From a bacterium (lineage in GTDB: Bacteria; Joyebacterota; Joyebacteria; Joyebacterales; Joyebacteraceae), in NCBI GenBank assembly GCA_025774935.1, contig JALGZK010000020.1, positions 1 to 14,414 of the forward strand: a stretch of DNA of 14,414 nucleotides, given 5' to 3'. The notes below the pieces were generated by a model, which was not told where the DNA came from, searched no databases, and saw nothing but the letters and a program-made list of their open reading frames with translations. This document shows, one piece after another, positions 2 to 14,274 of this stretch. How positions within the stretch are numbered: the first letter of the stretch is position 1; every line of letters begins with the position of its first letter. Both the position numbers and the translations under genes were made by a program.

Positions 2-931
2 CCGGTGGGAGGAGTCCACGTCGCGAACCTCTCGAACATGGAGCTCTACGTCAACACGGGGCCCGACCCGCGCACGTCGTACGTCGAGTGGGTGGATCTC
101 GTGTGCCAGGGAACCACGGCCCTCGTCTGCCCTGCCGGAGACGGGACTTCCCTCCACGCTGTGATCATGGACCAGTACGGCATCCCCATGGCGGGCGTCC
201 CGGTGGACGTAGCCTACAGCTCGGCCTGCGGCACGTGCGTGTGCGAGCCGAGCACGGTCTTCACCGGCACGACGGGCGAGGCGTTCATCCCGATCCACGC
301 CGGGCTCGACGTCATCGACCATCCCGGGGGCTGCGTGGTTACGACGGACGTGGAATGCCTGGGGTTGAGCCTCCCGTGGGCGGACGGACACGGGCGTCAG
401 GGAGCTGCGATCGACTGGCTGACACCGGACGTCAGCGGCGACTGCGAAGTGGGTCTCGCCGACTTCGTCATCGTCGAAGCGGACGTAGGGACCGACCACG
501 CCCGATCGGACTATGACTGTGACGGATCAGTGTCGCTGTACGACCTCAGCATCTTCCTGTTTCACTTCGTCGCCCCCGGCAACCGCCCCGACGATCCCCA
601 CGCGTGCGAACCGATCGTGACGGGAATCGAGGAGGGCGACGACCTCGAGCCGCGAACCGCAGAACTCCGGCAGAACTACCCCAACCCGTTCAATCCGCTC
701 ACGCACATCGTGTTCTCGGTGAGCGAGCCCGGAAGGGTAACGATCAGGGTCTACGACATCTCGGGGAGACCGGTCAGGACGCTCGTTGACGCGTGGCGAG
801 GGACGGGCGATCACGAGGTGAGCTGGGACGGCAGGGACAACGACGGGCGGGAAGTCGCCTCGGGAGTCTACTTCTACAGACTCGAGGTGCCCGGGCGGCC
901 GGAGTCACGGAAGATGGTGCTCCTGCGATAG
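2..931 (+). CDS. Secreted multidomain protein, 3' part: Ig-like region, dockerin-like loops, FlgD-like sorting domain
   Basis: The frame is open to the window edge, so the 5' end is missing; the GTG at 5 has no special claim to be the start. About 309 residues are visible. Numbering from that GTG, residues 47-122 look like an invasin/Big_1-type Ig domain (MDQYGIPMAGVPV ... TGTTGEAFIPI). Residues 142-181 hold two calcium-loop motifs of dockerin type, DVSGDCEVGLAD and DYDCDGSVSLYD. Residues 223-308 are a FlgD-like Ig domain starting with NYPNPFNPLTHI, with SGVYFYRL near its end and a terminal KMVLLR. This domain is the usual C-terminal secretion/anchoring domain in FCB-group exported proteins. 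Ten cysteines in the visible part suggest disulfides outside the cytoplasm. It is the only plus-strand gene, is convergent with the next gene and is followed by a strong hairpin. Its enzymatic or binding role lies in the missing part and is unknown. Confidence 0.85.
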   Translation, partial: PVGGVHVANLSNMELYVNTGPDPRTSYVEWVDLVCQGTTALVCPAGDGTSLHAVIMDQYGIPMAGVPVDVAYSSACGTCVCEPSTVFTGTTGEAFIPIHAGLDVIDHPGGCVVTTDVECLGLSLPWADGHGRQGAAIDWLTPDVSGDCEVGLADFVIVEADVGTDHARSDYDCDGSVSLYDLSIFLFHFVAPGNRPDDPHACEPIVTGIEEGDDLEPRTAELRQNYPNPFNPLTHIVFSVSEPGRVTIRVYDISGRPVRTLVDAWRGTGDHEVSWDGRDNDGREVASGVYFYRLEVPGRPESRKMVLLR

Positions 932-1043: not shown

Positions 1044-1898
1044 CTACCGGTAGAGCCCCTTGATCATCCCCCACGACGCGGGTTCCTCCACCGCCGGATC
1101 CTCGCCGTCGGGTCGAGGGACCTCCGGCGTCTCCTCGGTCGGGCCCCCCGCGCTCTCGGGATGCAGGACGACGATGCAGTCCTGGAACCGGAATGACCCG
1201 CTGTCGGCGAACGCGCCGGTCAGTGTCAGGACCATCTCCTCGCCGTGCGTCGCCGGGCCGATCGCGGCGACCAGTTCTCGTCGCCGGAACTTGAGCGTCA
1301 GGTCTTCGTAGCCGTCGGGGCCGCCCTCGCTGCAGTCGCAGCTGTCGGCATCGGCCGCCACCGGGGCGCCGACGTCCTCATAGCTCCACCGAAGAGGCGA
1401 CACCCCTTCGAGCCCGATCGACGACGGGTCGATGGAGGCGACGTCGAATCCCTCGCCGCCGAGGACCGCCACCGGGAGGACACCGTTGCTCTTGAAGTTG
1501 AAGGGGTTCGGACACGAGCCCGGCTTGATGTCGAGCGCGCCGGCTCCCCCACCGCAGGAGTCCGCGACGGTGAACGTCACTACGTCCGAGACGAACGGTT
1601 CCGGAGCGTAGTCGATGCCGACCTCGTACTCGCCCGGCCCGCAGGGAGCGTCGACCCACGGGTAGGATCCGTCGTTCACGTCTACTCCGATGAACGTCCA
1701 GGCGGTGTCGCCGTCCGCTCTCCAGTAGAGCACGAGCGTCGTGTCGGCGCAGCACGGCACGTCAGACGTCCAGCGAATGGTGTCGGGCGCACAGGGCGCG
1801 TAGCAGTCGCCGTCTGCCGGCTGCAGGATCTCGATCGAGTCGGCTCCAGCCGCACCTGTGATCGCCAGCACGAAACACACGATCATGAGCTGTCTCAT
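1044..1898 (-). CDS. Exported two-domain protein with C-terminal WGMIKGLYR tag
   Basis: 284 residues. I chose the ATG at 1898 because it opens a signal peptide (MRQLMIVCFVLAITGAAGA) and has GAGGGG 7 nt upstream; the 38 in-frame codons further upstream look non-coding. Residues 21-112 resemble the Ser/Thr-rich Ig-like domain of Kre9/KNH type (LQPADGDCYAPCAPDTIRWT ... GSYPWVDAP). Residues 121-245 match a recurrent uncharacterised domain of exported bacterial proteins that I know only by its opening, DIKPGSCPNPFNFKSNGVLP; it also has EGVSPLRWSYEDV and GPDGYEDLTLKF. Residues 246-275 are a Pro/Glu-rich linker, and the last nine residues are WGMIKGLYR. The mature part has ten cysteines. A weak possible promoter, TTGCCT-17-TACGGT, lies in the 222-nt gap upstream. 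Function unknown; a surface structural or adhesive role is a guess. Confidence 0.85.
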   Translation of the reverse strand: MRQLMIVCFVLAITGAAGADSIEILQPADGDCYAPCAPDTIRWTSDVPCCADTTLVLYWRADGDTAWTFIGVDVNDGSYPWVDAPCGPGEYEVGIDYAPEPFVSDVVTFTVADSCGGGAGALDIKPGSCPNPFNFKSNGVLPVAVLGGEGFDVASIDPSSIGLEGVSPLRWSYEDVGAPVAADADSCDCSEGGPDGYEDLTLKFRRRELVAAIGPATHGEEMVLTLTGAFADSGSFRFQDCIVVLHPESAGGPTEETPEVPRPDGEDPAVEEPASWGMIKGLYR

Positions 1899-2120: not shown

Positions 2121-2780
2121 TTAGCGGAACAGCCCCTTGATCCACCCCCACGCGTGGCTTTCGACCGGCTGCTCGCACTCGTACGTGTGGAGGTCTCCGA
2201 AGATCATAATCTCGTTCGTTCCGGGGGGATTCACGAACCGGAAGTTCCCCGACGTGGCCGCCCCGTAGCCACAGATGTCCTCGAAGACACCCGTGCCCTG
2301 GTCGGGGTCGACCGCGAGTGTCGCCGTGAGCTGGCAGTTCCCGTGCTTCTCGGACTGCGAGAGCACGCCGTCGGCATCGTCGTCGCGCAGCATGATCGTG
2401 AGGCTCGCGGATCCTCCGACGATCCCGCCCGGAGCGACCGTGTCGAACCCGAACGCGGGGGCCGCCGGCAGCGGCTCCGCGTAGAAGTACCCGAACCACG
2501 CCTCCGACCCCGGGGTGTCGTCGTAGTTGCCGGCGAAGAACGTCTCCCAGATGTAGTCGAAGCGTGCCGTCGTGTCCGCCGCGTCGGGCCAGAGCGAATC
2601 GTCGACCGAGAGATACCAGACGCCGGTGAGTCCGGAGAGGAAGGTGCCGCTGTAGGCCGCCCCGTTCACGAGAAAGCTCCCCGATCCCGTGAGCGCGTAG
2701 TTGTAGTCCTCGGCTGCGGCCGGCGCCGCGGCGAGCGCGAGCGCCGCGAGCACCGCGAGGATGGTCCTGATTCCCATCAT
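2121..2780 (-). CDS. Exported protein of unknown function with C-terminal WGWIKGLFR tag
   Basis: 219 residues from the ATG at 2780 (a second ATG follows directly), with GAGGG 8 nt upstream. Residues 1-23 are a signal peptide ending in AAPAAA. The mature part is rich in Gly, aromatic and acidic residues, with no transmembrane segment and no family that I recognise. It reads like a beta-sandwich; residues 133-144 (DDDADGVLSQSE) resemble one EF-hand-like calcium loop. The C-terminus, CEQPVESHA followed by WGWIKGLFR, closely matches the end of the PKD protein at 13234-14274 (CSPVESQS followed by WGAIKGIYR), although the bodies are unrelated. It starts 39 nt after the protease gene, so the two are probably co-transcribed, and it ends before a terminator. 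No function is assigned. Confidence 0.8.
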   Translation of the reverse strand: MMGIRTILAVLAALALAAAPAAAEDYNYALTGSGSFLVNGAAYSGTFLSGLTGVWYLSVDDSLWPDAADTTARFDYIWETFFAGNYDDTPGSEAWFGYFYAEPLPAAPAFGFDTVAPGGIVGGSASLTIMLRDDDADGVLSQSEKHGNCQLTATLAVDPDQGTGVFEDICGYGAATSGNFRFVNPPGTNEIMIFGDLHTYECEQPVESHAWGWIKGLFR

Positions 2781-2819: not shown

Positions 2820-5360
2820 CTATCTCAGGAGGATCATCTTCCTCGCCAGCTCCTGCCCGTCCGCGGTGAGCCTGTAGAAGTAGATACCCGAAGCGCTCGC
2901 CTGCCCCTCGTCGGTGCGGCCGTTCCAGACCGCGACGTAGTCGTTCGCGGCAAGCTCTGCGTCCACGAGCCTGCGAACCACCTTCCCGGTCACGTCGTAG
3001 ATCCTGAGCTCGACGTGCGCCGCCCGCGGAATCGAGTACGCGATGTGAGTCACGGGATTGAACGGGTTCGGGACGTTCTGCTCGAGCGCGAACCGCCGCC
3101 CGCCGCCGTCCGGGATGCCAGTCCCGCCCGTCGTCGCGAAGTCGTCGGAGTCGTCGTGCCACGCGAGACCCGCCGCGTCGCGCGCGATCACGCGAACCCT
3201 GCAGGTCGTGCTCGAGGTGTCGGGCACGCTCCACGCGAACGAACCGTCGTTCTCCTCACCCGCCGCCACGGCGTCCGGGAACGTCGCCCCGCTGTCCCAC
3301 GAGCACAGGATGTCGATCGAGGTCACGCCGGCGTTGTCCGTGGCCTCCCAGGTGATCTCGTGGGTCTCGCCGCCGGGGAGCTCCTCGCCTCCGACGGGTG
3401 AGGTGAGCGTCACCTCGGGCTGCTCCGTGTCGGGCCAGGCTCCGCCCGCGAGCCACTCGAGACTCCGTCGCATGATGGTGTCGCGGTCTGCCGAGTTCGT
3501 GACCCCTTCGAGACCGAAAGCGAGGTAGACGAGCCTGTGCGGGTCGTCGATCCTGATGGCGCCCACGGTGCCCGGGGCATACTCGAAGACCGGCACCGCT
3601 CCGCTCCTCGGCTCGATCTCGCTCGGATAGAACTGGTTCATGGCGCACCCCTCGCCGTTCAGCGTGAACGAGAGGCCGTCGCCGATCGGGTCGCCCGGAA
3701 CGCCGGTGAGACTCCGGAACCCGGAGTCGTCCTCGATATAGTCTGCGTGGAGGTAGTCCTCATAGAAGTTGATGAGGATCGGGTCGCCGTCGTGGTTCAT
3801 GAACCACCCGATGTCCTCCCCGGAGATCATGAGCGGACGGCCTGCGTCGAGATAGGACTCGAGCGCCGAGCGGTTGTTGTCACCGAGCTTCCCGCCCCAG
3901 CCGTTGTCCCACACGACGACCGCGTACCGCTCGAGCTCCTCGAGCGGGACGTCGCCGTCGAGCTCCTCGATCCACATGTTGAACGGATAGCCCGTGTTCT
4001 CGAGCGCGCCCTGGAAGTACGACTGCGTCGACTCGCCGCCGTCGTCGTCAACGAGAAGCACCGGCACCGGCCCGAGGATGATCGAGAACGTGTCGCTCCG
4101 GGCGTATCTGGACGTAGCGGTGATCGAGAGGACGAACTCGACGCTCTCGCCGACCGGCGCGAACTGGTCGACCGTGAACTCGAACGGGGGCGTCCCCGAC
4201 GAGGACTCGCCCGCGGCCAGGTTCCCGAAGGACGAGGTTCCCTGGGTGATCGTCACGTGGCTCGAGGCGGTCGTGAGGGTCGCGGCGACTCCCGTCCGGT
4301 CGGGGGCCAGGAGGTCGTTCTTGAGCGTTACCGGAAAGGAGACCGTCTCACCAGGGTCCGCATGTCCGTCGCCGTCGCCCGAGCCCGGACGCCCGCGCCC
4401 GTCGAGGACCGTGTGCCCCTTGTAGACGATCTCGGTTCCCTCGTAGTAGTAGAGGAGCTGGGCGGTCGAGGCGAAGTTGCACGTGCCGTACTTGATCCAG
4501 AAGTAGCCGCCGAGGTCGCCGAAGTTCTCCCCCCAGCTGTTCTTGCAGAGCCACGCTCCCTCTCCGCCGCACAGGTCGTCGTCCCACCCGAGGCAGACGA
4601 CCGCGTGGTTCGGAGGGTCGTCGCCCTCATGCTCGTAGCAGCCGGAACCGTAGTCGCCGAAGCTGCTGTAGACGCGGAAGGTGACGGCGATGGGGGCGGT
4701 CATGATCGCGGTCTTGAGCGCTGCCACGCTGTTCGGGACGTCGACCCACTCGCTCGTGACCGCGACCTTCCCGCACGGTTCGTCGGTGCACGGCAGCGTG
4801 TCGTCGCCCTGGTACGGCATGCAGCCCTCGAGGACAGCGCCGTACTCGCGGACGTAGCCCCAGGCCCATGACATCCACCCGCCGTCGCACCCGTAGCCCG
4901 GCGTCGCGCAGGAGAGGATCTGCTGCTCCGAGAGGTCGTACTCGATCCCCTCGTGGATCTTGACCACCGCTTCGAGCACGCCCGTCGCGGCGAAGTCCCA
5001 GCAGCTCCCGCAGCCGCCCTGGTGCTTGACGGCCGTCATCCCGTCGTAGTCGCGCCAGTCGAACGAGGTCGGAAGGTCGCGCCGCACGGGGAACTGGGAC
5101 TCGTCGAGGGCGGCAAACCTCCGCGCGACCTCCGGCGGAATCCGCAACCCGAGGAGCCCCTCGAACTCCTCGTCGGTCAGGTCGGAGGTCCAGTTCCGCT
5201 TCGCGGTCCAGTGCTGCCCCCGCGCGTCGATCTCGCTCTGGAGGGCCTCGATCTCCGGATCGGTCCCCCGCTCCGGGGCGGCCAGCGCGTCTGCCGGCGT
5301 CGCGAGCACGAACGCGCCGACGAGGCAGAACGCAACGAAATACCCGGGGATACGCCGCAT
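2820..5360 (-). CDS. Secreted papain-family (C1) cysteine protease with FlgD-like sorting domain
   Basis: 846 residues. The ATG at 5360 is chosen because it opens a signal peptide (residues 1-27, ending ADALA) and GAGGAG lies 9 nt upstream. Residues 34-75 look like a short propeptide (IEALQSEIDARGQHWTAKRN). The C1 domain spans about 96-307 and keeps the catalytic set: Q114 and C120 in KHQGGCGSCWDFA, H252 in NHAVVCLGWDDD, N274 in CKNSWGENFGD. Next come a beta-sandwich opening GSGDGDGHADPGETV (about 315-430), a segment opening PVLLVDDDGGESTQSYFQ that resembles ThuA/amidotransferase-like folds (about 432-640), an Ig-like domain (647-745), and a FlgD-like domain (757-846) with NVPNPFNPVTHI, SGIYFYRL and a terminal KMILLR. 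It is likely surface-attached or released by a C-terminal-signal secretion route. Its substrate is unknown. A promoter lies at 5410-5438. Confidence 0.93.
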   Translation of the reverse strand: MRRIPGYFVAFCLVGAFVLATPADALAAPERGTDPEIEALQSEIDARGQHWTAKRNWTSDLTDEEFEGLLGLRIPPEVARRFAALDESQFPVRRDLPTSFDWRDYDGMTAVKHQGGCGSCWDFAATGVLEAVVKIHEGIEYDLSEQQILSCATPGYGCDGGWMSWAWGYVREYGAVLEGCMPYQGDDTLPCTDEPCGKVAVTSEWVDVPNSVAALKTAIMTAPIAVTFRVYSSFGDYGSGCYEHEGDDPPNHAVVCLGWDDDLCGGEGAWLCKNSWGENFGDLGGYFWIKYGTCNFASTAQLLYYYEGTEIVYKGHTVLDGRGRPGSGDGDGHADPGETVSFPVTLKNDLLAPDRTGVAATLTTASSHVTITQGTSSFGNLAAGESSSGTPPFEFTVDQFAPVGESVEFVLSITATSRYARSDTFSIILGPVPVLLVDDDGGESTQSYFQGALENTGYPFNMWIEELDGDVPLEELERYAVVVWDNGWGGKLGDNNRSALESYLDAGRPLMISGEDIGWFMNHDGDPILINFYEDYLHADYIEDDSGFRSLTGVPGDPIGDGLSFTLNGEGCAMNQFYPSEIEPRSGAVPVFEYAPGTVGAIRIDDPHRLVYLAFGLEGVTNSADRDTIMRRSLEWLAGGAWPDTEQPEVTLTSPVGGEELPGGETHEITWEATDNAGVTSIDILCSWDSGATFPDAVAAGEENDGSFAWSVPDTSSTTCRVRVIARDAAGLAWHDDSDDFATTGGTGIPDGGGRRFALEQNVPNPFNPVTHIAYSIPRAAHVELRIYDVTGKVVRRLVDAELAANDYVAVWNGRTDEGQASASGIYFYRLTADGQELARKMILLR

Positions 5361-5409
5361 TTCGGCCGTCTCCTCACCTATGGGTTCAAGACAGATTGTG
5401 TCAGTTTCA

Positions 5410-5438
5410 CGTATAGCATAATCCTGACCAGTTGGCAA
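5410..5438 (-). promoter_or_regulatory. Sigma70-type promoter for the protease gene
   Basis: On the minus strand, -35 TTGCCA (5438-5433) is followed after exactly 17 nt by -10 TATACG (5415-5410), with TGC directly upstream giving an extended -10. The 91-nt gap is clearly more AT-rich than its surroundings. The predicted start, near 5403, leaves a leader of about 43 nt before the ATG at 5360. It would let the protease be transcribed apart from the comM operon. Confidence 0.6.
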
Positions 5439-7006: not shown

Positions 7007-7378
7007 TCACCTCCCCTCCGCATCGAACGCCCCCGCCACGTGCTCGACGACGAGCGCGGTCCCGCCTCTCCCGAGCCTTACCTCTATGACGTCGAACCTG
7101 CACGGCGACGACTCGCGCCGCCGTTCCGAGAGGTAGCCGCGCGCGGCCAGGACGATGTGACGCATCTTCCTCGCATCGACGGCCTCCCGCGGTAGCCCGC
7201 GAGCCACGGAGCCCCGGAACTTCACCTCGACGAAGACGAGCCGCCCGCCCTTCTCGGCGACGACGTCGATCTCCTTCCGGAGGAACCGGTAGTTGCGCTC
7301 GAGCACCGAGTAGCCGCGCATGCGAAGGAAGCACGCCGCGATCTCCTCGGCGAGCGAGCCGATGCCGCTCGTGTGCAT
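7007..7378 (-). CDS. yraN: YraN/UPF0102 family nuclease-like protein
   Basis: 123 residues, usual for the family, which has a restriction-endonuclease-like (Holliday-junction-resolvase-like) fold and no firmly established role. Conserved features: GYSVLERNYRFLRKEIDVVA (residues 22-41), then RLVFVEVKFR (46-55). E36, D38, E51 and K53 form the expected E-x-D ... E-x-K nuclease signature. The ATG at 7378 is chosen because MHTSGIGSLAEEIAACFL aligns with the usual N-terminus; the ribosome site there is weak, and the upstream frame extension is arginine/proline-rich and unlike protein. It lies between rnhB and comM, a widespread arrangement. A DNA processing or repair role is inferred from the fold. 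Confidence 0.92.
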   Translation of the reverse strand: MHTSGIGSLAEEIAACFLRMRGYSVLERNYRFLRKEIDVVAEKGGRLVFVEVKFRGSVARGLPREAVDARKMRHIVLAARGYLSERRRESSPCRFDVIEVRLGRGGTALVVEHVAGAFDAEGR

Positions 7379-7440
7379 GGACGTGGTCCCAAGGGGAAAC
7401 GTGGGGGTGTGTCGCCGCCGGCCCGGGTTGCCGGCGCCCG

Positions 7441-7470
7441 GGGCTACCGCCGGCCGGGCCACCGCCGGCC
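7441..7470 (-). repeat. 15-bp tandem duplication spanning the rnhB stop codon
   Basis: Positions 7456-7470 and 7441-7455 are identical except at one base (7460 versus 7445). On the minus strand the first copy encodes GRRWP, and the second encodes GRR followed by TAG, so the only difference turns the TGG tryptophan codon into the stop codon of rnhB. Confidence 0.85.
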
Positions 7471-8517
7471 GGACATCCCGACCTTCGCGCGGACGTAGCA
7501 GCGCTTATAGAGAGACCGCAGCTTCGAGAGCTCGAAGGAGGCGAGCTCCTCTCTCACACGGGCTATCCTGAGGGCGATGGCCTCGAGCTCCTCGGCGGTC
7601 CCGGCGTCGAGGAGTTCGGAGCGGAACCAGAGGTAGTGCTCGGAGAAACCCCCGTCGGCGTCGAGCACCGTGCGGAAGGAGCGCCGGTGGATCTCGCAGG
7701 GCCCGAGCCTCGTCAGCGCCGCGAGGTGCTCGGGCGTCCCGTAGCCCTTGTGCTGAGCGAACCCGTACCCGGGGTAGTGCTCGTCGTACTCGAGGAGGAG
7801 CCTGTCCCTGGTCACCTTGGCGACGATCGAGGCCGCGGCGATCACGGTCGAGCTCTCGTCGCCGCCGTGGATCGCGGTCTGGGGCAGGTCGAGGTTGGGA
7901 ACTTCGTTCCCGTCGACCAAGACGTGATCGGGGATCTCGCCGAGGCCGGCCACGGCCTCGCGCATCGCCCGCTGCGTCGCCTTCAGGATGTTGATCTCGT
8001 CGATGACCTTCTCGGAGACGCTCGAGACTCCGACCGCGACGGCCTCGCTCGTGATGAGAACGAAGAGCTCCTCGCGCTTCTCCGGCGTCAGCTTCTTCGA
8101 GTCCTCGATCCCGCGAATCGAGAGGTCGCGCGGGAGAATGACCGCGGCAGCCGTCACGGGTCCCGCGAGCGGCCCGCGCCCGGCCTCGTCCACGCCCGCC
8201 ACGAGCCTGGCGCCCGTGGCCCAGAGCTCCTCTTCCGAGGTTCGCATCGCGGCCCGGTGGCTCGACTCCCAGGCGGCCGCAGCGCGCTCGCGGAGGAGGC
8301 GCGCGCATATCTCGCGGACGCCCTTCCGCGGGTCGGTCGAGAGCTCCCCCCAAAGAGGATCGCCGGGCTCCGGTGGAGCTCCGGCGACATGCTCTCGTAC
8401 TTCTCTGACGCTCATGCGCGAGATCGCCCGGCGCTCGACCGAGATGTCCACCTCACCGACACCGTCGGCGGCGTCGACTGCCGCCGTCTCCTCGACCCTC
8501 TTCTCGGTCTCCGCCAT
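7444..8517 (-). CDS. rnhB: Ribonuclease HII with N- and C-terminal extensions
   Basis: 357 residues, longer than the typical 200-260. It cleaves the RNA strand of RNA-DNA hybrids and starts removal of ribonucleotides from DNA. The catalytic acidic set is present: D110 and E111 in AGVDEAGRGPLAGPV, D202 in LVDGNEVP, D238 in AAASIVAKVTRDR. EDSKKLTPEKREEL and HKGYGTPEHLAAL are also family-typical. Residues 35-100 (MSVREVREHV ... ) resemble the substrate-binding N-terminal extension of Bacillus-type RnhB. Residues 1-34 and about 285-357 are extra; the C-terminal part looks helical, ending in an arginine-rich stretch. The ATG at 8517 is preferred over the one at 8415 because GGGAG lies upstream of the former and nothing similar precedes the latter. 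The gene lies 56 nt after rplS. Confidence 0.95.
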   Translation of the reverse strand: MAETEKRVEETAAVDAADGVGEVDISVERRAISRMSVREVREHVAGAPPEPGDPLWGELSTDPRKGVREICARLLRERAAAAWESSHRAAMRTSEEELWATGARLVAGVDEAGRGPLAGPVTAAAVILPRDLSIRGIEDSKKLTPEKREELFVLITSEAVAVGVSSVSEKVIDEINILKATQRAMREAVAGLGEIPDHVLVDGNEVPNLDLPQTAIHGGDESSTVIAAASIVAKVTRDRLLLEYDEHYPGYGFAQHKGYGTPEHLAALTRLGPCEIHRRSFRTVLDADGGFSEHYLWFRSELLDAGTAEELEAIALRIARVREELASFELSKLRSLYKRCYVRAKVGMSGRRWPGRR

Positions 8518-8549
8518 CGCCCGGGCTCTCCCGCGGGAGCGGCGCCCGA

Positions 8550-8566
8550 CCGGCCGTCTCGGCCGG
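8550..8566 (-). other. Small hairpin between rplS and rnhB
   Basis: A 6-bp stem, CCGGCC (8550-8555) with GGCCGG (8561-8566) around a 5-nt loop, sits 8 nt after the rplS stop. No U-tract follows on the minus strand, so it is not a convincing terminator. It could affect mRNA processing or partial polarity. Confidence 0.3.
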
Positions 8567-8573
8567 GCTCGGG

Positions 8574-8924
8574 CTACTGGATATCCTTCGCCTTCGTCTT
8601 CGCGGACTTCCCGGTCCTCTTCCTGAGGTAGTACAGCTTCGCGCGCCGCGCCTTGCCGCGGCGTGTCACGACGATGCTCTGGACGTTCGGCGAGCTCACG
8701 GGGAAGATCCTCTCCACGCCGATCCCCGACGTCACCCTTCGCACCGTGAACGTCTCGTTCGGACCGTTCCCCTGCCTCGCGAGGACCGTCCCCTCGAAGG
8801 CCTGCGTCCGCTCCTTCTCACCCTCACGGATGCGGACGTGCACGCGGACGGTGTCGCCGATGCTGAAGTCGGCTGCCTCGTCCCGCAGGAACCTCTGCTC
8901 GATCTCCTTCACCTTCTCGTTCAT
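8574..8924 (-). CDS. rplS: 50S ribosomal protein L19
   Basis: 116 residues, the normal length. L19 sits at the 30S-50S interface. Family signatures run the full length: [16 protein letters not shown] (20-35), [17 protein letters not shown] (38-54), [19 protein letters not shown] (58-76) and [17 protein letters not shown] (90-106). The ATG at 8924 is chosen because [13 protein letters not shown] fits the family start and AGGGGAG lies just upstream; the frame extends 14 codons further without support. It follows trmD by 38 nt, in the conserved rimM-trmD-rplS order. Confidence 0.98.
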
Positions 8925-8962
8925 CTCTGCTCCCCTGGTGTCCGGGACCTCGCGCTCCGCTC

Positions 8963-9742
8963 TCACCGCGACGCCGGGTCCTCTCGTTCTCCCTCTATCT
9001 CATCGAGTATCTCTCGATCCTCGTCCGTCATCTTCGTCTCGTTGAGAAGGTCGGGGCGCCTCTCGAGCGTCGCCCGGAGCGACTCCTTCCTCCTCCACCG
9101 CCTGATCCGCTCGTGGTTGCCCGAGAGCAGCACCTCGGGAACCCGCTCGCCCTTGTGCTCCTCGGGGCGCGTGTAGACCGGCGGGCCCAGCACTCCGTCG
9201 TAGAACGAATCCGTCTCGGCGCTCTCCATGTCTCCGAGGACCCCCGGCACAAGCCTGGCCACGGCGTCGACCACGATCGCCGCCGCCAGTTCGCCTCCAG
9301 TCAGGACGAAGTCCCCGATCGAGACCTCGTGCGTGGCGAGCGCGGTCACCCGCTCGTCGACTCCCTTGTAGCGCCCGCAGACGAGCACCACGTGCTCGAA
9401 GCCCGAGAGCTCCTCCGCGAGCGCGTGGTCGAAGAGCCTCCCGCGCGCCGAGAGGAGCACGACAGCGGGACCACGGCCGCCGGCTTCGCCACCTGCGTCC
9501 CCCGGAACGGTCTGCCCGAGGACGGAATCGAGTGCGTCAAAGATCGGTTCCGGCTTCATCACCATCCCGCTGCCGCCACCGTACTGGTAGTCGTCGGCGG
9601 TTCGGTGTGCGTCGGTCGCGTGGTCCCTGATGTTCGTGAGCCGGATCGACAGAAGTCCGCGCTCGCGGGCCTTCTGGAGTATGCTCTCGCTCAGCGGGCC
9701 CTCGAACATCTCGGGAAACAGCGTGAGAATGTCGATCCTCAC
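8963..9742 (-). CDS. trmD: tRNA (guanine-N1)-methyltransferase TrmD
   Basis: 259 residues, starting with GTG at 9742 (AGGGGG just upstream; 8 nt after the rimM stop). It methylates G37 of tRNAs using S-adenosylmethionine and so limits +1 frameshifting. The SPOUT trefoil-knot signatures are present: [13 protein letters not shown] (54-66), [11 protein letters not shown] (122-132), [13 protein letters not shown] (141-153), then DSFYDG (178-183), which carries the catalytic aspartate, and [19 protein letters not shown] (190-208). The family more often has CGRYEGIDER and [11 protein letters not shown], so K126 and S58 are mild variants. The last 25 residues are strongly acidic. Confidence 0.97.
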
Positions 9743-9750
9743 CCGGCCCC

Positions 9751-10266
9751 CTATCTCAGGCCCTCGATCAGGTGAACCACCATCTTCGCGGCCACGACGT
9801 CCACTTCCCTCACCACTTCTTCCGTCGCGGGCAGCAGGATCTCGCCGTCCGCTCCTCTCACCACGTAGACGTCGTTCGCCGGCTGGTGCATCACCTCGGC
9901 CAGCTGCCCGAGGTGTTCCCCCTCTTCCGTGTAGACGTCGACCCCGAGGATGTCCTGAACGAACCAGCGGTCATCCCCGAGCTCCCCGACCTGCTCCCTC
10001 GAGAGCCAGAGAGTGTATCCCCTCAAGCTCTCGGCGGCATCTCGCGAGTCGAAGTCGGCGAACCAGACGATGAGCCGGCCCTTGTGCTCCCGGGCCTGCT
10101 CCACGACGAGGATCCTCTCCTCTCCCCGCCGCGTCGTCGTGCGCACCTCCATCCCGTCGACGACGAGTTCCAGGAGGTCGCCCTTGATGTCGACGACGAC
10201 TTCTCCCTTGATGCCGTGTGGCCGCATGACGGCGCCGGCCTCGATCCAGTTGTCGATTTCCTTCAT
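9751..10266 (-). CDS. rimM: Ribosome maturation factor RimM
   Basis: 171 residues, the usual size. RimM binds S19 on the 30S subunit and helps assemble the head domain. The N-terminal RimM domain opens with IEAGAVMRPHGIKGEVVV (8-25). The C-terminal PRC-barrel-like domain begins around WFVQDILGVDVYT (101-113) and includes QPANDVYVVRG and EILLPAT. The ATG at 10266 is chosen by alignment to the family start; its ribosome site (GGGA) is weak, but the upstream frame is arginine-rich and non-coding in character. It lies between khpA and trmD in the standard order. Confidence 0.95.
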   Translation of the reverse strand: MKEIDNWIEAGAVMRPHGIKGEVVVDIKGDLLELVVDGMEVRTTTRRGEERILVVEQAREHKGRLIVWFADFDSRDAAESLRGYTLWLSREQVGELGDDRWFVQDILGVDVYTEEGEHLGQLAEVMHQPANDVYVVRGADGEILLPATEEVVREVDVVAAKMVVHLIEGLR

Positions 10267-10315
10267 TCGGCAGTCCCGGGTCGGCCGGCCGCGGCCGAAA
10301 AAGCCAGATGGCTTC

Positions 10316-10609
10316 CTAGTCGATGATCTCGACGGTCGCCTTCTTCTCGTTCTTGGTCGCCGCCGCTCCGATGATCGCGCGGAGCGCCTTGGCGGTGCGA
10401 CCGTTCTTTCCGATGACGCGACCCTTGTCCTCGTCGGCAACCCTGACTTCGTAGACGATCATGTCGCCCTTCTGCGTCTGGGTCACCTGCACGTCATCGG
10501 GACTGGTGACGAGTCCGCGCGCCACGTACTCGACCAGCTCCTGGAGCGAGGACTCGATGTTGTCCACGCCTCCGGTGCTTTCGACGGTCTTGGTTTCGTC
10601 TTCGAACAT
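10316..10609 (-). CDS. khpA: KH-domain RNA-binding protein KhpA
   Basis: 97 residues; the family is usually 75-85, and the extra length is an acidic N-terminal segment of about 20 residues. KhpA is a small single-KH-domain RNA binder that in some bacteria pairs with KhpB/Jag and affects cell division and RNA fate. The core begins ELVEYVARGLV (24-34) and carries the KH signature GRVIGKNGRTAKALRAI (63-79), with the GxxG loop G67-G70, then KKATVEIID at the end. The ATG at 10609 has an AGG-type ribosome site upstream. It follows rpsP after an unusually long 191-nt gap. Confidence 0.94.
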   Translation of the reverse strand: MFEDETKTVESTGGVDNIESSLQELVEYVARGLVTSPDDVQVTQTQKGDMIVYEVRVADEDKGRVIGKNGRTAKALRAIIGAAATKNEKKATVEIID

Positions 10610-10800
10610 TTCTCGACCTTTCTGGGAGACTAGGTAGTCAATCTCCGGCCCGAAGGTCGTCAGGAGGGCCGGCCGGCGTTTCCGCCGGACGCTTCTGCCG
10701 GCGCCTCTGGCACGGAGTTGTCTCCTTCGCCTTTCCCCCTTTACGTGGTCTCACATGCGTACGGATCGGGGTCGGGGGCGACACCCTTCTCTTCGGGCGC
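10610..10800 (-). other. rpsP-khpA intergenic region with decayed tail-like frame and GAAA hairpin
   Basis: This 191-nt spacer is the longest within the operon. Read in the rpsP frame past its TAG stop it gives APEEKGVAPDPDPYACETT, then TAA at 10743-10741, then a stretch containing VPEAPAEASGG, then TGA at 10662-10660. That composition matches the Ala/Pro/Glu tail of S16. A 6-bp hairpin, CCGGCG-GAAA-CGCCGG on the minus strand, lies at 10688-10673 with no U-tail. No convincing separate gene or promoter is seen. Confidence 0.5.
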
Positions 10801-11496
10801 CTACTCCTTTGTCTCCTTGGCCCCCTCGTCGGCCGAAGCCTCCGCCGGAACCTCAGCCGTCTCCAGTTCTGCCGCCGGTTCGGCAGCCGCCTCTTCGGGT
10901 GCTTCGTCAGCGGGTGCGGGCTCTTCCGGCGCCTCGGGCGCGGCCTCGGGCTCGGCCGCCTCGACGGCCTCCCCCGTGGTCTTCTCGACCGGTGTCTCGG
11001 GAGCCTCCTCAGCCGGCGTCTCGGGAGCCTCCTCGGCGGTCGCCTCGGTGGTCTCCTCGGCCGGCGTCTCGGCGGGCTCCTCGGTCGTCTCCTCGGCCTT
11101 CGCCTCTTCGGCCTTCTCCTCGGCCTTCCGCGCCTTGGCCTCCTCCTTCTTCCTCCGCTGCATCGACGCCTGCGCCTCGAGGCGCTTCCGGGCGTCGTCC
11201 TCGATGTGCCTGAGCTCATCGAGCGACTTGCCCTTCTTCACCTCGTGCCAGGTCTGCATGATGCCGATGCGGGAGAACAGGGACCTCACCGTCTCGGACG
11301 GCTGGGCTCCCTTCCCGAGCCACCCGATCGCCTTCTCGGTGTCGACCTTGATGTCGGGCGGATTCTTGAGGGGATCGTAGTAGCCGAGCTGCTCGATGAA
11401 CCGCCCGTCCCTCGGCGCCCTCGAATCGGCGGCGACGATCCGGAAGAAGGCCATGTGCTTTGCGCCCTTCCGCTGAAGCCTCAGTCTAACTGCCAC
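10801..11496 (-). CDS. rpsP: 30S ribosomal protein S16 with long acidic C-terminal tail
   Basis: 231 residues, whereas S16 is normally 80-100. Residues 1-85 are the conserved ribosomal domain (VRLRLQRKGAKHMAFFRIVA, APRDGRFIEQLGYYDP, WLGKGAQPSETVRSLF). Residues 95-133 look like a charged helix rich in Lys, Arg and Glu. Residues 134-231 are low complexity, mostly Glu, Ala, Pro and Thr, with units such as EETTEEPAETPAEETTE and EAPETPAEEAPETP. From 131 to 231 I count 36 acidic and 4 basic residues. The start is GTG at 11496 with GGAGG 7 nt upstream. Long S16 tails occur in some FCB bacteria; the function here is unknown. The tail should be disordered and could reach the subunit surface or bind cationic partners. 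Confidence 0.97.
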   Translation of the reverse strand: MAVRLRLQRKGAKHMAFFRIVAADSRAPRDGRFIEQLGYYDPLKNPPDIKVDTEKAIGWLGKGAQPSETVRSLFSRIGIMQTWHEVKKGKSLDELRHIEDDARKRLEAQASMQRRKKEEAKARKAEEKAEEAKAEETTEEPAETPAEETTEATAEEAPETPAEEAPETPVEKTTGEAVEAAEPEAAPEAPEEPAPADEAPEEAAAEPAAELETAEVPAEASADEGAKETKE

Positions 11497-13233: not shown

Positions 13234-14274
13234 CTACCGGTAGATGCCCTTGATGGCGCCCCAGGACTGGGACTCCACCGGCGAGCAGTCGATCACGGTG
13301 TACGTCTGGCAGCAGGACACGTTCCCGTCGTTGTCGGTGACGCAAAGGGTCACGATGAAGAACCCGTCGTCCTGGTAGAGGTGGGTCGGGTTCGGCCCCG
13401 AGCCGACACCGCCGTCGCCGAAGTCCCAGTCGTAGCTCACGATCTCGCCGTCGGGATCGGACGAAGCGGAGCCGTCGAACTCGATCGGAACGTGCGCGTT
13501 GCCCCAGTACGGACCGCCGATCTCGCAGATCGGGGGCTCACCCGAGCTGGGCTCGATCCTGTAGCAGAAGTTGTCGAAGCCGACTCCGCCCGGGTCGTCG
13601 TTGTGGATCGAGATGCCGCCTATGTCGGCGGCGCCGCCGATCCTCCGGAACGCGACCGTCCTCTCGTAGAGATCGGTCAGAATGAACGTGTCGAGGTGGG
13701 TGCCATCCCGCTTGAAGAAGTTCACCCAGGCGTTGCCGTGGTTCCCGCCCATGACGTCGAACCCGATCATCGACTGGTCGACGTCGAAGAGGACCGCTAT
13801 GGCTCCCTCCCCGAGCGCCGAGAAGCTCGGCCACTGCAGGTAACCGAGCCCTCCGCAGATCTGGCTGTGCCAGCTGTCGTCATACGCGACGGCGAGGTTC
13901 TCCAGCGGCGGACCGGCCATGAGCGCGAGGGGGCCCACGGGAAGCTCCGTGAGAACATCGTGGTCGCCGTTCACGACCACGACCTGCCCGTCGAAGCGCT
14001 CGCCGAAGTCCGCGCCCGCGACGGAGATCAGCTCGTCGTAGTTCGTTCCCGGCGGAGGACCCCCCGGAAGAAGCTCGAACGTGATGAACGCCTCGCACGA
14101 GAGCGAATCCGGTGACATCGTCGCGATGTTGCCGTCGAGCGACCCCTCCGGCACGCTGGCCGGCAGCATCGACTCGCCGTCCGGATCGAACATGTCGCCC
14201 GCGGCAGCGACCCCCGCCCCAAGGACCAGGACCGCCATTGCCAGCCAGACGACGGTTGGCGTGATCTTAGCCAT
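13234..14274 (-). CDS. Exported PKD-domain protein with C-terminal WGAIKGIYR tag
   Basis: 346 residues. The ATG at 14274 has a strong ribosome site (GGAGGAG, 8 nt spacing) and opens a signal peptide (1-25, ending VAAAG). Residues 57-240 form a putative jelly-roll-like domain of the kind seen in lectin-like exported proteins: ITFELLPGGPPPGTNYDEL near its start and GGISIHNDDPGGVGFDNFCY at its end. Residues 248-329 are a PKD domain with the signature YDWDFGDGG (281-289). The final segment, CSPVESQS followed by WGAIKGIYR, nearly repeats the end of the protein at 2121-2780. There are eight cysteines in the mature part. PKD domains usually mediate protein or carbohydrate contacts on surfaces. No promoter is obvious in the 140 nt to the window edge, where a 6-bp hairpin (14309-14325) is seen. 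Confidence 0.88.
   Translation of the reverse strand: MAKITPTVVWLAMAVLVLGAGVAAAGDMFDPDGESMLPASVPEGSLDGNIATMSPDSLSCEAFITFELLPGGPPPGTNYDELISVAGADFGERFDGQVVVVNGDHDVLTELPVGPLALMAGPPLENLAVAYDDSWHSQICGGLGYLQWPSFSALGEGAIAVLFDVDQSMIGFDVMGGNHGNAWVNFFKRDGTHLDTFILTDLYERTVAFRRIGGAADIGGISIHNDDPGGVGFDNFCYRIEPSSGEPPICEIGGPYWGNAHVPIEFDGSASSDPDGEIVSYDWDFGDGGVGSGPNPTHLYQDDGFFIVTLCVTDNDGNVSCCQTYTVIDCSPVESQSWGAIKGIYR

Follow-up and report, generated by a model that had tools for sequence, protein, structure and literature searches.

The 14,414-nucleotide stretch of DNA analysed here (the window; contig JALGZK010000020.1, assembly GCA_025774935.1) carries on its minus strand three genes for exported proteins that share a short C-terminal tail. 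The first (1044..1898) encodes a protein with a DIKPGS-type segment and a signal-peptide-like start, MRQLMIVCFVLAITGAAGA; it has no Pfam or NCBIfam match in profile searches and ends in AVEEPASWGMIKGLYR (1047..1094; stop at 1044-1046). The second (2121..2780), of unknown family, ends in PVESHAWGWIKGLFR (2124..2168; stop at 2121-2123), and the third (13234..14274), a PKD-domain protein (PKD_4, E=5e-23), ends in PVESQSWGAIKGIYR (13237..13281; stop at 13234-13236). The last nine residues, WGMIKGLYR, WGWIKGLFR and WGAIKGIYR, are as an earlier note on this DNA had read them, and in all three genes the stop codon follows the tail immediately. The note had also called the bodies of these proteins unrelated, and all-against-all BLAST agrees that they are not homologous throughout: among 64 tagged proteins of this genome, the first and third bodies have no group partner, and the second groups solely with one tagged protein encoded elsewhere (L002:3374-4027). 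Two neighbours offer a contrast, ending in a type A CTD of the type IX secretion system (T9SS): an exported protein with a type A/FlgD-like end, ...KMVLLR (5..931, plus strand, its frame open at the window start; TIGR04183, E=1.5e-8, above the cut-off), and a papain-like protease that ends in ...KMILLR (2820..5438, minus strand; TIGR04183, E=1e-7, above the cut-off). A conserved housekeeping run on the minus strand (7007-11496; ribosomal protein S16-like, KH, RimM, TrmD, L19, RNase HII and YraN-like genes) adjoins the exported-protein genes.

How common is the tail in this genome? A stop-free DNA pattern encoding WGx[hydrophobic]Kxx[YF]R, TGGGGNNNNNTNAARNNNNTNTWYMGN, matches 69 places in the 3.24-Mb sequence, while the reversed pattern, used as a control, matches 0; the genome was covered through searches and chosen stretches. 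All 68 places that were read and translated are in frame and at most ten residues from the end of the frame; with 69 matches against none, this position excludes chance. The claim that identity is confined to the extreme C-terminus thus stands, the tag being exactly terminal in 62/68 cases, rather than equally frequent inside proteins; one extra residue follows it in 5/68 and nine in 1/68. These short extensions (nine residues in L021; one residue in L009, L014, L020, L022 and L026) may be tolerated or may reflect shifted stops. The one truly internal copy, found with a looser protein motif, is SWGGLKHIF, which closes the first repeat of a two-repeat exported protein (L006:2876-4027) whose terminus has an intact tag; this copy is degenerate, its final R having been lost.

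The conserved part of the tagged proteins spans about 15-16 residues, with the consensus [ST]PVExx[ST]WGxIKALYR. Counted over 68 tails, the positions run S/T, P (47), V (47), E (49), any residue, A/S, T (37) or S (26), W (68), G (67), any residue, I (57), K (68), A/G/S, L (53), Y (58) or F (10), and R (68); the core terminus, [ST]-W-G-x-[IV]-K-x-[LM]-[YF]-R, is strongly conserved in sequence. The motif proposed from the three window proteins, WGxIKG[LI][YF]R, is narrower than this consensus: after K, G is in the minority in this genome (A 36, G 16, S 13), and the conserved [ST] before W has to be added.

The 64 tagged proteins fall into 37 body clusters, with beta-helix, PKD, cohesin, starch-binding, MAM, plastocyanin and Cleaved_Adhesin domains; NCBI families among them are choice-of-anchor V, choice-of-anchor J and MXAN_6652. 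Choice-of-anchor families are named for members that end in different sorting signals; no paper defining them was found in the open-access literature. Signal peptides, which the earlier note had seen on all three window proteins, prove general: 62 of the 65 tagged proteins with a readable start have a signal-peptide-like one, against 85 of 347 control frames, as called by a rough hydropathy heuristic that takes the best of all possible starts and thereby favours the tagged set. Might the tail signal nothing and simply close off certain domains, as a structural end piece that duplication has spread? The degenerate copy that closes a repeated domain in L006 and the tandem tagged paralogues (L021, L024, L029) would fit. 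However, the tag is common to 37 unrelated body clusters, keeps within ten residues of the terminus everywhere save in L006, and is detached from the fold in the model of a small tagged protein described below, making an end piece very unlikely. A C-terminal degradation or quality-control tag would share the exact terminal position, but is hardly credible for a tail that is gene-encoded, sits behind signal peptides on dozens of proteins, is basic and amphipathic, and is confined to a subset of T9SS genomes.

If the tail is a signal, is it one of those already described? The earlier note did not recognize it as a named family; indeed, in none of the 68 tagged proteins is the tail covered by a Pfam or NCBIfam model, and the motif is not described in any paper found in the open-access literature. 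Like the T9SS type A CTD (TIGR04183, PF18962), the tag is C-terminal on proteins with Sec signal peptides, comes after the same Fn3 domain and occurs in the same host genomes, with SprA, PorV and PorU. Unlike the type A CTD, an Ig-like domain of 67-100 residues, it is a tail of about 15 residues, starts with an invariant W and is predicted to form a helix, not a strand; none of the 68 tagged proteins matches TIGR04183 or PF18962, whereas two window neighbours match TIGR04183. Type B and type C CTDs are likewise alternative T9SS signals used by some substrates. The type B CTD, in contrast to the tag, is 100-235 residues long and has its own SprF-like shuttle gene next door; its profile (TIGR04131/PF13585) matches none of the tagged proteins, and the test for a neighbouring shuttle, which covered PorV-like genes, gave one such gene in 282 kb of tag loci. 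LPXTG/sortase signals are C-terminal sorting tags on many bodies too, but the tag has neither an LPXTG motif nor a membrane helix, and its host belongs to a group with a Gram-negative-type envelope.

The comparison with PEP-CTERM/exosortase, MYXO-CTERM and GlyGly-CTERM goes further: these are also short C-terminal signals on many unrelated bodies, and some body families are shared. The tag could be a PEP-CTERM relative on which an exosortase-like transpeptidase acts. Upstream of the core, E-x-[AS]-[ST]-W is spaced like PEPSTW, the motif of PEP-CTERM, and exosortase genes are present in 17/26 tag-bearing genomes searched, including the genome studied here. But, as the earlier note had pointed out, the tag lacks the transmembrane helix of PEP-CTERM: the tail ends eight residues after W, and it has no Arg cluster. 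Moreover, five tag-rich genomes (G060, G133, G169, G269 and G304; 16-33 tags each) have no PF09721 match, yet G169 and G304 keep a TExSTW-like form; conversely, G229 has an exosortase but mostly no E. In the host genome, the exosortase gene (L216) has an EpsI-like gene and glycosyltransferases as neighbours, in a locus of EPS type. Because the membrane helix is lacking and exosortase is missing from five tag-rich genomes, a PEP-CTERM-type pathway is unlikely. Judged by sequence, the tag lacks the defining features of type A CTD, type B CTD, PEP-CTERM and LPXTG signals; its setting, a genome with SprA and the PorV family and a Sec signal peptide on the protein, is the one that a T9SS signal requires.

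The tag recurs in relatives, as the earlier note had anticipated, and in further phyla. In all 20 host-phylum genomes examined (one family, eight genera), stop-terminated tags number 12-62 per genome, with 0 in controls. A scan of GTDB species for WGxIKAMFR gave at least 119 loci; among the matches listed, those from Eisenbacteria, Krumholzibacteriia and Effluviviaceae have the tag on varied bodies, and those from Ignavibacteria, KSB1, Calditrichota, Neomarinimicrobiota and Delongbacteria have it on one small Fn3-like protein. All 120/120 matches in public genomes are terminal, which is no evidence of terminality, since the pattern included the stop position. Five further tag-rich genomes show the same pattern, mostly with signal peptides; upstream forms there include SATEPSTW and AVESESW. 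Divergent tails also exist: WGAIKAEFK (L191), WGEIKAEFSE (L198) and WGSIKALLK (L184, G231). G183 and G319, the source genomes of L191 and L198, encode several Fn3 proteins with divergent tails apiece. A single WGQIKAMFR end was seen in a MAG labelled Puniceicoccales, outside the FCB group (L114:1819-1848); contamination or transfer is possible.

The small Fn3-like protein, of about 130 residues, ends in TWGSIKAMFR and has exactly one match per genome searched in Ignavibacteria, KSB1, Calditrichota, Neomarinimicrobiota and Delongbacteria. Examples of this secreted protein are L127:7629-8000 and L050:2278-2673, with about 80 relatives in L051-L167. Across the set, its body keeps 27-60% identity to the first sequence while its tail is nearly unchanged, an invariance caused in part by the search pattern itself. 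AlphaFold2 predicts a confident Fn3 fold (pLDDT 94-97) from which the tail stands apart as a short helix, at low confidence (pLDDT about 60); for a second tagged family (L024), the mean pLDDT of 43 is too poor to interpret. The last ten residues of the tails have a net charge of about +2, and the helical hydrophobic moment is 0.49 versus 0.36 in permuted tails. The simplest reading makes the tail an exposed linear motif that another protein would bind. Kinship of the small protein with the T9SS Plug is unsupported: a PDB profile search and Foldseek gave only generic Fn3 folds among the matches listed.

Which protein would bind such a motif? The available data point to T9SS, and SprA and PorV supply the matching phyletic pattern that the earlier note had predicted for an export or processing protein; a direct partner, receptor or processing enzyme of the tag was not found. 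Of 310 genomes forming one fixed set, 45 are tag-bearing and 1 matches the control; SprA_N, marking the T9SS translocon SprA, is present in 44/45 tag-positive versus 49/265 tag-negative genomes (Fisher p=4e-26), counts that are not phylogenetically independent. Strong PorV-family hits occur in 45/45 tag-bearing genomes, a SprA-positive member in all 23 tag-bearing families, and C25 peptidases in 26/26 tag-bearing genomes tested; G137 is the one tag-positive genome with no SprA hit. Co-occurrence of SprA and the tag could come from shared FCB ancestry only. A test within the 119 genomes with strong PorV-family hits argues against ancestry as the sole cause: the tag is present in 44/92 SprA-positive versus 1/27 SprA-negative genomes (p=9e-6) and, when the host phylum is excluded, in 28/76 versus 1/27 (p=8e-4). 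Many T9SS genomes carry no tag, so T9SS does not need it.

The host genome itself encodes SprA (2137 aa), a PorU-like C25 protease whose gene directly adjoins that of PorV, and type A CTD proteins, of which the window contains two. At G000:C22:316500-325500 (L215), porU-porV is followed by a gene for a 1067-aa protein with a CTD-like tail; C25 peptidases give 26 matches in the same genome, and of 23 PorV-like candidates from a first look, six were scored and six match. PorV genes show no linkage to the tag genes: a single PorV-like gene occurs in the 282 kb examined around the tags, where one or two were judged to be expected by chance.

The tail may instead dock to another envelope receptor typical of the FCB group, at the inner leaflet of the outer membrane, in the peptidoglycan machinery or in a retention complex, which merely co-occurs with T9SS; the tagged proteins would then be periplasmic or membrane-anchored. 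A basic amphipathic peptide without T9SS gene linkage is compatible with such docking, and the main hint for periplasmic retention comes from Ignavibacteria, in which the tagged Fn3 gene lies directly upstream of a gene for SpoIID (peptidoglycan) in 36 loci. Gene order there is Fn3-tag gene, SpoIID, Maf and a UPF0104-like gene. However, the SpoIID-Maf link is absent from the KSB1, Calditrichota and Neomarinimicrobiota loci inspected, the tagged bodies are surface or adhesion types or belong to families that bear surface-sorting signals elsewhere, and the tag follows SprA even within PorV-positive genomes. Another receptor is a possible but less likely reading.

Support for T9SS also comes from bodies that occur with either ending, compared after removal of tail and CTD. 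An Fn3 domain directly before the tag (L191) is 45% identical over 90 aa to one directly before a type A CTD (L075); the small Fn3-tag proteins are likewise similar to several CTD proteins; and a tagged body of the host genome (L010) aligns with the body of a CTD protein over 397 aa (26% identity, E=3e-12). Since related bodies precede either the tag or a type A CTD, the tail takes the place of the CTD. Type A CTDs themselves depend on their very ends: in HBP35 the signal is within the last 22 residues; in RgpB, truncation of two terminal residues blocks export; and a near-terminal lysine, almost invariant, contacts PorV, while short C-terminal extensions are tolerated (PMC11285876, PMC10202324, PMC10994853). 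The tag, too, has an invariant near-terminal lysine, and five tags bear one-residue extensions.

The earlier note had likened the tail to a sorting or anchoring signal, and the pattern is supported; sorting itself we infer from sequence. The best reading, to which we give an even chance, makes the tail a short C-terminal signal for sorting (docking), read by T9SS or by a T9SS-coupled receptor. A tagged protein would cross the inner membrane by Sec and then fold, leaving an amphipathic, basic C-terminal helix exposed; the T9SS outer-membrane complex (SprA and a PorV-type shuttle), or a coupled receptor, would capture this helix, and the protein would be delivered to the cell surface. In the host group, the tag would work beside the folded type A CTD. 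In phyla with a single tag, it sits on one small protein and not on general cargo, which counts against a T9SS signal; there, the tail of the small Fn3 protein may go back to an ancestral ligand that this receptor bound. More tentatively, a linear peptide of about ten residues could constitute a second, FCB-wide class of type IX signal that bypasses the Ig-like CTD, with the small Fn3 protein, which bears a near-frozen copy of it across phyla, as an ancestral ligand of the same receptor.

Neither Pfam nor NCBIfam models the tag, and the open-access papers found do not mention it; it appears to be a previously undescribed C-terminal sorting signal. Were it a T9SS signal, it would be a minimal, portable export tag that accounts for how dozens of proteins per genome reach the surface in phyla without a cultured model, and a ten-residue peptide could test which part of the CTD the translocon really reads. 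If another receptor binds the tail, much of the FCB group would share an envelope-sorting system that is yet to be described. In both cases, the last ten residues now let annotation flag a class of exported proteins.
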